NCBI RefSeq assembly: GCF_002332425.1
Contig: NZ_NRGS01000019.1
Span: 62,001-126,000, forward strand
Source of the DNA: Brachybacterium alimentarium
Lineage (GTDB): Bacteria; Actinomycetota; Actinomycetes; Actinomycetales; Dermabacteraceae
DNA length: 64,000 nt
Direction of reading: 5' to 3'
The notes under the pieces: generated by a model
The model's database searches: none
What the model was told of the DNA's origin: nothing
The model's input: the letters and a program-made list of their open reading frames with translations, nothing else
Part shown: positions 9,005 through 10,346 of the stretch, piece by piece
How the letters are laid out: every line of letters begins with the position of its first letter
Numbering within the stretch: the first letter of the stretch is position 1
Made by a program: the position numbers and the translations under genes

Positions 9005-10138
9005 TCAGCTCCTGTCACGGCGTCGCCGGACTCCCCCGGCGAGCGCCCGCAGCACACCCTCGGTGGTCTCCCATGCCATGCACTTGTCGGTCACCGACTG
9101 GCCGCGCACGAGCCCGTCGGGGCCCGAGTCCACGTCGAGGGTCTGCGCGCCGGCGACGAGGTTGCTCTCGAGCATGACCCCGGCGACCGCTGCGCCGTCC
9201 ACCGCGATCTGGTCGGCGAGCATCGTGGCGACCTCGGCCTGGCGCACGTGGTCCTTGCCGGAGTTGCCGTGGCTGGCGTCGATCACGAGCCGCGCCGGCA
9301 GACCCTGCGCGGCGAGGCGGTCGGCGGCGGTGCGCACCGGCGCCGGGCCCCAGTTCGGGCCGTCGGTCCCGCCTCGGAGGATCAGGTTCGCGTCGGCGTT
9401 GCCGGTGGTGGAGACCAGGCTCGCCCGCCCGTCGGCCCCGATCCCGAGGAAGGACTGCGGTGCCGAGGCCGCCGCGACCGCGTCGAGCGCGACCTGGATG
9501 GCTCCGTCGGTGCCGTTCTTGAAGCCGATCGGCATCGACAGTCCCGAGGCGAGCTGGCGGTGGATCTGGGATTCGGTGGTGCGGGCCCCGATCGCACCCC
9601 AGCTGATGAGATCCGCGATGTACTGCGGGCTGATCGGTTCGAGGAACTCGGTGGCGCAGGGCAGGCCGAGCGCGGTCACCTCGCGCAGGAAAGCACGGGC
9701 CGTGCGCAGGCCGCCCTCGATGTCGTGGCTGCCGTTGAGGTGCGGGTCGTTGATCAGACCCTTCCAGCCGATGGTGGTGCGCGGCTTCTCGAAGTAGGTG
9801 CGCATCACCAGCAGCAGGTCATCGCCCATCTCCGCCTGGACGCCGGCGAGCAGGCGGGCGTAGTCGAGCCCGGCCTCGGGGTCGTGGATGGAGCAGGGGC
9901 CGACGACCACCAGCAGGCGGTCGTCCTCGCCGGAGAGCACCGCTCGGACGGCGTCGCGGTGGCCTGCGATCTGGTCGGCGTGCTCCGGTCGCAGGGGCAG
10001 CTCGGCGAGCAGCTCGTGCGGGGTGGGCAGCGGCGTGAGGCTCGAGATGTGCCGGTCGGACGTGCTGACCGGGGCCGACGAGGTGGGATCCTGCGAGGCG
10101 CTGGCCTGCGCGGTGGATGCGGTGTCGAGAATCGTCAT
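9005..10138 (-). CDS. aroF: DAHP synthase, class I (aromatic pathway entry)
   Basis: A 377-aa 3-deoxy-D-arabino-heptulosonate-7-phosphate synthase of the class I (AroF/AroG/AroH) family, condensing phosphoenolpyruvate and erythrose-4-phosphate at the entry to the shikimate pathway. A Ser/Thr-rich N-terminal ~40 residues precede VVVGPCSIHDP (metal Cys near residue 80), MRTYFEKPRTTIGWKG, GARTTESQIHRQLASGL, PIGFKNGTDG and IDASHGNSGKDH. RBS AAGGA lies about 11 bases before the ATG. A leaderless aromatic-rich peptide and a stem-loop precede it, so expression is probably controlled by ribosome-mediated attenuation. The exact isozyme letter cannot be derived from sequence; AroF is used loosely. Confidence 0.93.
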   Translation of the reverse strand: MTILDTASTAQASASQDPTSSAPVSTSDRHISSLTPLPTPHELLAELPLRPEHADQIAGHRDAVRAVLSGEDDRLLVVVGPCSIHDPEAGLDYARLLAGVQAEMGDDLLLVMRTYFEKPRTTIGWKGLINDPHLNGSHDIEGGLRTARAFLREVTALGLPCATEFLEPISPQYIADLISWGAIGARTTESQIHRQLASGLSMPIGFKNGTDGAIQVALDAVAAASAPQSFLGIGADGRASLVSTTGNADANLILRGGTDGPNWGPAPVRTAADRLAAQGLPARLVIDASHGNSGKDHVRQAEVATMLADQIAVDGAAVAGVMLESNLVAGAQTLDVDSGPDGLVRGQSVTDKCMAWETTEGVLRALAGGVRRRRDRS

Positions 10139-10195
10139 GGGTCCTGTCCTTGGGGAGGGGCGGACCCGATGCTCAGAGCCCGCCGGGAATGGCGA

Positions 10196-10219
10196 AGGGC
10201 AGAGCGGATGCTCTGCCCT
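10196..10219 (-). terminator. Attenuator stem-loop upstream of aroF
   Basis: Perfect 10-bp stem (arms AGGGCAGAGC and GCTCTGCCCT on the transcript) with loop ATCC, 24 bases after the leader-peptide stop and about 57 bases before the aroF ATG. A flanking CAGAGCCGCC just upstream can pair with GGCGGGCTCTG just downstream, and its CAGAGC can also compete for GCTCTG in the stem. Mutually exclusive folds are therefore possible, as an attenuator needs. No T-run follows, so a translational mode cannot be excluded. Confidence 0.7.
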
Positions 10220-10243
10220 GGCGGCTCTGAAGGGGTGGGGACG

Positions 10244-10303
10244 CTATGGCATCGCCGGCCCCTCCAGGGCCGACTTCGCATAGGTAAACCACCGATTCAT
10301 CAT
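10244..10303 (-). CDS. Aromatic leader peptide (attenuator) of aroF
   Basis: A 19-residue open frame, MMNRWFTYAKSALEGPAMP, placing Trp, Phe and Tyr within four residues directly after the start. This is what a ribosome sensing charged aromatic tRNAs would read. It lies 105 bases upstream of aroF on the same strand, starts exactly where transcription is predicted to begin (leaderless) and is followed by a strong stem-loop. It resembles in principle the AroR leader peptide described upstream of aroF in Corynebacterium glutamicum. The function is inferred from architecture. Confidence 0.75.
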   Translation of the reverse strand: MMNRWFTYAKSALEGPAMP

Positions 10304-10309
10304 GCGGGG

Positions 10310-10346
10310 ACTGTACCCCGGATGCGCGTCCTGTCGAATCGACAGG
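10310..10346 (-). promoter_or_regulatory. Leaderless promoter with palindrome for aroF leader
   Basis: On the minus strand TTCGAC (10333-10338) and TACAGT (10310-10315) are separated by 17 bp, with six bases between TACAGT and the leader-peptide ATG. Transcription would thus start at or next to the ATG. A palindrome CCTGTCGAATCGACAGG (10330-10346, 8-bp arms, odd centre) covers the -35 box and is a candidate operator. Confidence 0.6.

Follow-up and report, generated by a model that had tools for sequence, protein, structure and literature searches.

The type I DAHP synthase gene (aroF) of Brachybacterium alimentarium was found to be preceded by a short leader ORF that carries codons for aromatic amino acids. 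The leader is real and beyond chance: it was present at all 20 aroF loci found among 38 Brachybacterium genomes (own genome counted in), which is the conservation upstream of aroF in congeners that the original prediction had put forward as a check. By sequence comparison, it is a member of an actinobacterial family of leaders that is widespread ahead of type I DAHP synthase genes. The leader and the RNA that follows it probably form a ribosome-mediated attenuator of aroF that monitors charged tRNAs for Tyr, Phe, and Trp and acts on the ribosome-binding site. Aromatic amino acid synthesis begins with DAHP synthase, and output of the aroF enzyme probably rises when aromatic amino acids are short. 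The stretch of DNA analyzed, referred to here as the window, comprised 64,000 nucleotides of B. alimentarium (NZ_NRGS01000019.1, positions 62,001 to 126,000).

Features of the locus are listed in Table 1. The 19-codon minus-strand frame with W-F-T-Y, as well as the perfect 10-bp stem-loop behind it with flanks able to re-pair, had been described in the original prediction, and both were present when read directly from the sequence; the sensor codons of the window's leader are TGG TTT ACC TAT. The combination of a leader peptide, aromatic codons, and alternative pairing ahead of an aromatic-pathway gene was also backed by comparison, in that a conserved short ORF with codons for the pathway products was present close to the putatively regulated gene. 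Segments D, E, and F were included in the span first described (positions 10139 to 10346) and were left undescribed in its text. The genome (G000) contains one type I DAHP synthase (the aroF of the window) and one type II enzyme (C19 and C7), which makes aroF one of a pair of isoenzymes. The 966 bases ahead of the type II match of this genome contained no short ORF with at least two aromatic codons. The type I gene was unmatched in 18 of the 38 genus genomes, some of which are incomplete.

Table 1. Features of the aroF leader region, in window positions, and of the leaders upstream of the tyrS paralogue
Feature	Position	Strand	Remarks
aroF, type I DAHP synthase	9005..10138	minus	PF00793, TIGR00034
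Segment F (GGACCC)	10139..10144	minus	Directly before aroF start codon (ATG)
Probable Shine-Dalgarno sequence of aroF (AAGGA)	10147..10151	minus	In loop of E:F
Segment E (GGGTCCGCC)	10159..10167	minus	Can pair with D (on) or F (off)
Segment D (GGCGGGCTCTG)	10174..10184	minus	Can pair with A (off) or E (on)
Hairpin B:C (AGGGCAGAGC-ATCC-GCTCTGCCCT)	10196..10219	minus	Perfect 10-bp stem, compatible with both states
Segment A (CCCTTCAGAGCC)	10223..10234	minus	After leader stop; can pair with segment 2 or D
Leader ORF (MMNRWFTYAKSALEGPAMP)	10244..10303	minus	ATG at 10303, TAG at 10246-10244, 19 codons; read directly and by comparison
Segment 2 (GGCCCTGGAGGG)	10260..10271	minus	Inside leader codons after aromatic cluster; can pair with A or self-fold as hairpin P1
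-10 hexamer TACAGT	10310..10315	minus	6 nt before leader ATG; present at 20 of 20 genus loci
Possible -35 TTCGAC	10333..10338	minus	17 nt from TACAGT; sequence not conserved
Palindrome, 17 bp (CCTGTCGATTCGACAGG)	10346..10330		Overlaps the -35
tyrS leaders	L250-L257 (and L243-L246)		Genomes G007, G009, G018, G020, G023, G024, G028, G037

Within the genus, leader peptides followed the pattern M-x-x-R-[W/R]-x-x-Y-x-x-[S/P]-A-[L/P]-E-G-P, with aromatic cores W-F-[T/S]-Y (13 leaders), W-Q-F-Y (3), W-Q-V-Y (2), R-F-I-Y (1), and R-Y-A-Y (1). Tyrosine (TAT) was retained in all 20 of these leaders, tryptophan in 18, and phenylalanine in 17, and the aromatic codons were retained while the flanking residues varied. 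Across all usable leaders, the predicted conservation of the W-F-T-Y codons held for tyrosine, which was invariant (122 of 122), and less well for tryptophan (107) and phenylalanine (115), which vary. The occurrence of all three aromatic residues in one leader, first thought to be unusual, is instead the rule among the sequences compared (101 of 123 leaders as called). In one locus (L028, positions 2638 to 2820), a one-base insertion after the aromatic codons produced the peptide tail SLCSGGARV and left the RNA segments, including segment 2, intact; this insertion could be a sequencing error.

The spread of such leaders was assessed with an objective scan of 235 upstream regions for ORFs of 12 to 30 codons that contained at least three W, F, or Y codons within six consecutive codons near the start and ended before the gene, with the reverse strand as the control. 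Of 63 further loci, 60 were taken in; the other three, all second copies in family f4, were omitted. Passes on the forward versus the reverse strand numbered 17 versus 1 of 20 loci in the genus, 47 versus 1 of 49 in the other families of the order without family f4, 33 versus 0 of 53 in the class, and 23 versus 1 of 30 among named actinobacteria. Family f4 gave 2 versus 2 of 33. Among named nonactinobacterial loci, 14 of 50 passed on the forward strand versus 9 of 50 on the reverse strand, and for this reason no claim is made outside the actinobacteria. Three genus leaders (L009, L015, and L017) were under the scan cutoff yet were present by direct comparison. Of the 20 misses in the class, 17 were the loci of family f35, one (L185) had masked upstream bases, and two had leaders under the cutoff (L207 and L216). 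In families f4 and f35, aroF was present without the leader, a point against the proposed attenuator. Named carriers included loci of Arthrobacter, Microbacterium, Streptomyces, Glycomyces, Mycolicibacterium, Gordonia, Nocardia, and Pseudonocardia, and scan misses included loci of Nocardiopsis (L111 and L125) and of the Bifidobacterium family (L151 and L164). Family f22 carried the gene in 170 of 201 genomes, and 19 of 20 hand-picked loci passed the scan; leaders in three small f22 genomes began MRMWRFYF, MRNWRFYF, and MSVQRFYF. Short aromatic ORFs were also seen upstream of betaproteobacterial aroF relatives (L172, L182, and L148), such as MSAKFYFYFFWHLKPLADREGES in Burkholderia sp. 8Y, with an overall nonactinobacterial rate near that of the reverse-strand control.

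Downstream of the aromatic codons, the RNA can be arranged in an ON set (2:A, B:C, and D:E) or an OFF set (A:D, B:C, and E:F), and two mutually exclusive conserved pairings that share a segment (2:A versus A:D) were present as pairing potential. Across 46 aligned leaders of the ALEGP type, 95.2% of cells were paired in the ON set and 94.3% in the OFF set, compared with 32 to 62% and 21 to 56%, respectively, when partners were slid by 1 to 3 columns; E:F was the weakest helix (84.9% paired). Cells changed on both sides numbered 36 in each set versus 14.2 and 13.4 in shuffles, a value reached by 0 of 500. Pairs changed on both sides numbered six per set, with 39 and 13 of the 500 shuffles, respectively, attaining as many, and over both sets the counts of pairs and pair types changed on both sides were matched by 13 to 93 of 500 shuffles. 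The double changes were mostly in B:C. The flank of 2:A added one pair of columns (35:91; CG in 24 leaders and UA in 20, with zero mismatches among ungapped rows), at which a leader codon change from TCG to TTG was matched past the stop codon. In 16 rows, none from the genus and mostly of the Arthrobacter type, one base of E was changed such that D:E gained a GC pair in place of GU; the aligned E:F pair was lost in 15 of these rows, some of which have an alternative E:F outside the alignment. This change lends comparative support to D:E as a functional helix. In 117 of 122 leaders, the distance from the start of the last aromatic codon to segment 2 was 8 nt (85 leaders) or 11 nt (32 leaders), a spacing at which a stalled ribosome would reach the competing segment if its footprint has the generally known length, and the core of A lay a median of 16 nt past the leader stop codon. 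A motif resembling CUUCG[CU]CAUU recurred after B:C in many groups (window positions 10196 to 10186 and equivalents) and in folds can pair its CGCC with GGCG of D or its GCCA with the Trp codon region UGGU.

By comparison of sequences, covariation is strong for 2:A, and 2:A and B:C show the strongest signal of all helices. Cores of 2:A were aligned without gaps in 122 of 123 leaders, with cells that represent sequences and not independent events and with invariant core positions that are uninformative; L009, in which the leader was miscalled (its leader is MQNRRFIYARSAPEGPATV), was dropped from the pair counts. At least five positions had two or more frequent pair types (such as UA 51/CG 41/GC 7, CG 66/UA 34, GC 50/AU 42/UA 6, and GC 47/UA 35/CG 7). 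At the first, third, and fourth of these positions, pairing with the own partner was 0.83, 0.81, and 0.76, respectively, versus 0.54, 0.48, and 0.34 with partners from other groups. In 113 of 122 leaders, segment 2 paired better with its own A than with the A of others on average. In a duplex-energy matrix, the values were -35.0 for cognate, -30.0 for shuffled, and -29.8 for other-group partners, and the cognate value was the lower one in 112 of 123; because GC content diluted its signal, the matrix was replaced by these position-wise counts.

Folding with RNAalifold and no structure supplied recovered both proposed sets, the ON set in two lineages and the OFF set in a third. The 46 leaders gave 2:A, B:C, and D:E, with four added pairs that joined the Trp codon region to the motif behind B:C. 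Seven of eight leaders of a genus with R-W-Y-W cores gave the same three helices; leader bases also formed three pairs with the GACC ahead of the start codon, so that F was not free in this fold. Ten of 17 hand-picked f22 leaders gave P1, A:D, B:C, and E:F, with D, E, and F sequences that differ (GGGCACC, GGTGCCC, and GGCACC). Covariation terms were near zero in the f22 and R-W-Y-W folds because these sets are closely related.

In the proposed mechanism, a ribosome waiting at the aromatic codons, with the last of them in its A site, would overlap segment 2 at its first few bases (footprint length from general knowledge); it would break hairpin P1 and leave 2:A partly undisturbed, so that segment 2 could still capture A. 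With A held by segment 2, D would be free to pair with E, F would be single stranded, and aroF would be translated. When aromatic amino acids are plentiful, the ribosome would pass, A would pair with D around hairpin B:C, and E would pair with F, closing the aroF start region. Hairpin B:C, located between A and D, would hold RNA polymerase during this choice and is possibly a pause site or a weak terminator. The region had been called a complete attenuation module; the codons, the leader, and the alternative pairing stand, whereas "complete" in the classical sense goes beyond what the comparison supports, as the 10-bp hairpin fits both states, its U tail is weak in the genus, and the conserved pairing runs to the aroF start region.

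The switch was modeled by ribosome-mask, truncation, and forced-helix folding, all at equilibrium on the 46 ALEGP-type leaders. In transcripts ending before D, the probability of 2:A exceeded 0.5 in 46 of 46 leaders with a stall at the first aromatic codon, in 29 of 46 with a stall at the last aromatic codon, in 43 of 46 with the ribosome absent, and in 0 of 46 with the leader masked through its stop. At full length, a stall at the last aromatic codon favored downstream pairing of A (0.87) over its pairing with segment 2 (0.08), and masking of only the stop-codon footprint left A paired with segment 2 (0.89). Because 2:A persists with the stop footprint masked or with no ribosome, the off state would rely on P1, trailing ribosomes, or kinetics. 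Equilibrium folding alone therefore fails to give the switch; for the model to hold, synthesis order, P1, and trailing ribosomes must play a part.

At the downstream end, D:E formed in 44 of 46 leaders (20 of 20 in the genus) when A was unavailable and the transcript ended before F. At full-length equilibrium, E:F usually beat D:E (probability of D:E, 0.16; genus, 0.09), and opening of the start region was 0.52 with D free versus 0.51 with D blocked. In 42 of 46 leaders, forcing D:E left the start region more open than blocking D did. When 2:A was forced instead of A:D at full length, the Shine-Dalgarno sequence was more open in 22 of 46 leaders (3 rows undefined) and in 12 of 20 genus leaders, with a mean genus difference of 0.001. 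Start-site opening under stall versus passed masks was 0.52 versus 0.47 and was higher in 30 of 46. Full-length equilibrium folds, whether with ribosome masks or with 2:A or A:D forced, thus gave no on/off separation at the ribosome-binding site. A translation-level output is favored in this model; its action on the ribosome-binding site is the least secure part and would need kinetic trapping.

The lack of change at the ribosome-binding site in equilibrium folds is a point in favor of the main rival, transcription attenuation, in which the same amino acids would be sensed and the output would be premature termination at B:C (or Rho-dependent termination). The available portions of two papers (PMC4046766, PMC11802643) present the aroF leader of Corynebacterium glutamicum as an attenuator of transcription whose attenuator transcripts were detected. 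B:C is a strong and conserved stem that shows the most covariation, and in family f22 the 10 nt behind it contain a mean of 5.5 U (17 of 17 leaders). Against this, the tail in the genus has a mean of 3.1 U in 10 nt, and B:C is compatible with both 2:A and A:D, so that nothing in the anatomy found switches it. Termination at B:C would also leave the conservation of D, E, and F unexplained. Termination at or after B:C is possible, above all in family f22, and as the general account of these leaders it is considered unlikely, though to be taken seriously.

Conservation of both the peptide and the RNA would also be expected of a constitutively translated upstream ORF, or of an RNA element that binds its ligand directly, without sensing of aminoacyl-tRNA. 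Such an explanation is improbable, given that the aromatic codons are kept amid changing flanks, that their spacing to segment 2 is fixed, and that no Rfam family, T-box or other, matched at its gathering score in the window and six relatives. A low-threshold Rfam search of the region returned five matches, each far under its gathering score.

Main control by a repressor bound at the palindrome is scarcely credible, for although the palindrome overlaps the -35, it was found at 1 of 20 genus loci, the window's own, and the additional repressor once suggested for this site is likewise not supported. The promoter proposed with it, TTCGAC-17-TACAGT with transcription starting on the ATG, fared better: TACAGT is shared by the genus and places the probable start at the start codon, whereas TTCGAC was found only in the window's own genome of the 20. 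More widely, 106 of 122 leaders had a TANNNT no more than 18 nt ahead of their called start, versus a mean of 2.0 in displaced windows, and it was separated from the start codon by 6 nt in 37 leaders and by 7 nt in 60. Because TANNNT lies mostly 6 to 7 nt before the start codon, transcription probably starts at or beside the leader start codon, giving a leaderless message.

Codon choice was compared between the aroF coding stretches and the leaders of the same 78 loci, with the L009 leader left out. In the coding stretches, UAU was used 8 times versus 354 for UAC (of 362) and UUU 3 times versus 527 for UUC (of 530). In the leaders, the corresponding counts were 99 versus 6 (of 105) and 64 versus 8 (of 72). 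The difference was significant for each amino acid (Fisher test, P < 1e-70 each, on sequences that are not independent). Part of the bias toward U-ending codons may come from RNA structure, since UUUAUC pairs inside the f22 leader hairpin.

Neshat et al. reportedly described in 2014 the AroR leader of aroF in C. glutamicum, which is said to have a leaderless start. AroR and the window's leader are alike in that a leader peptide with aromatic codons lies ahead of a DAHP synthase gene. As far as its published description is available, AroR differs in being transcriptional and in having F-Y-F codons, whereas the window has W-F-T-Y, a tyrosine that is invariant in the family, and pairings conserved to the aroF start codon. 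The R-F-Y-F leaders of the three small f22 genomes match the F-Y-F of AroR by that partial description, and the sequences of these three contain segment 2 and A. Antibiotic-responsive translational attenuators of erm and cat genes work by ribosome stalling in a leader, which frees a closed ribosome-binding site. The aroF leader differs from these in its longer relay and its amino acid codons, and its release step is inferred.

The C. glutamicum leader, in the portions of the reports available, has F-Y-F codons and responds to Phe limitation (PMC4046766, PMC11802643), with Tyr availability having no effect (PMC11802643). According to the accessible text of Seliverstov et al. (2005; PMC1262725), their survey revealed no conserved RNA structures ahead of actinobacterial Phe or Tyr operons. 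The actinobacterial trp, leu, and ilv attenuators, as presented in parts of two sources (PMC1262725, PMC8079986), likewise have short ORFs, regulatory codons, and alternative hairpins, and many are leaderless; they differ from the aroF leader in responding to other amino acids. Eight leaders are listed for Streptomyces lividans, none of them for the aromatic entry (aro) or tyrS in the available part of that paper (PMC8079986), and trp, ilvB, and leu leaders are given for Corynebacterium diphtheriae in a further partly available source (PMC5784534). A translation-level output was proposed in the same phylum for the actinobacterial ileS T-box with a Shine-Dalgarno sequestor, in the available text of PMC1262725, as it is here for the aroF leader. 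The T-box differs in binding tRNA directly, and the aroF leader had no T-box match in Rfam. In the full-text literature searched, as far as its texts were available, the C. glutamicum leader was the only aroF leader described after 2005, and no description was found of the wider leader family, the relay, or a tyrS leader.

The occurrence of such leaders at type I genes across actinobacteria, together with a similar one at a tyrS paralogue, makes it testable whether a strand-exchange relay lets an amino acid leader peptide act on translation and whether sensing is sharpened by U-ending codons, which are very rare in the enzyme genes; the leaders may also be of use to engineers of aromatic production. 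A broader reading is put forward tentatively, as a real possibility: an old actinobacterial five-segment relay (2-A-D-E-F) would pass the ribosome position on a leaderless message through three strand exchanges to the aroF ribosome-binding site, with slowly decoded UAU/UUU codons as sensors, and would have been put to a second use at a gene for a tyrosyl-tRNA synthetase in those same genomes. In four genomes, a covariance model of the aroF leader gave weak matches ahead of a tyrS paralogue (E values of 6e-4 to 7e-3); of six weak second matches inspected, four lay before tyrS and two elsewhere. The paralogue was matched (E value cutoff of 1e-15) in 8 of 38 genus genomes, all eight of which also contain aroF, and at this cutoff the window's own genome had no match. 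All eight have, ahead of the paralogue, its own short and probably leaderless Tyr leader, which includes a TAT codon (D-Y in seven and T-Y in one) and has TANNNT just upstream. In these tyrS leaders, of which MHLRLDYPHGSDASRVIVRVPLP is an example, segments 2 and A and hairpin B:C were recognizable by eye in a similar order.
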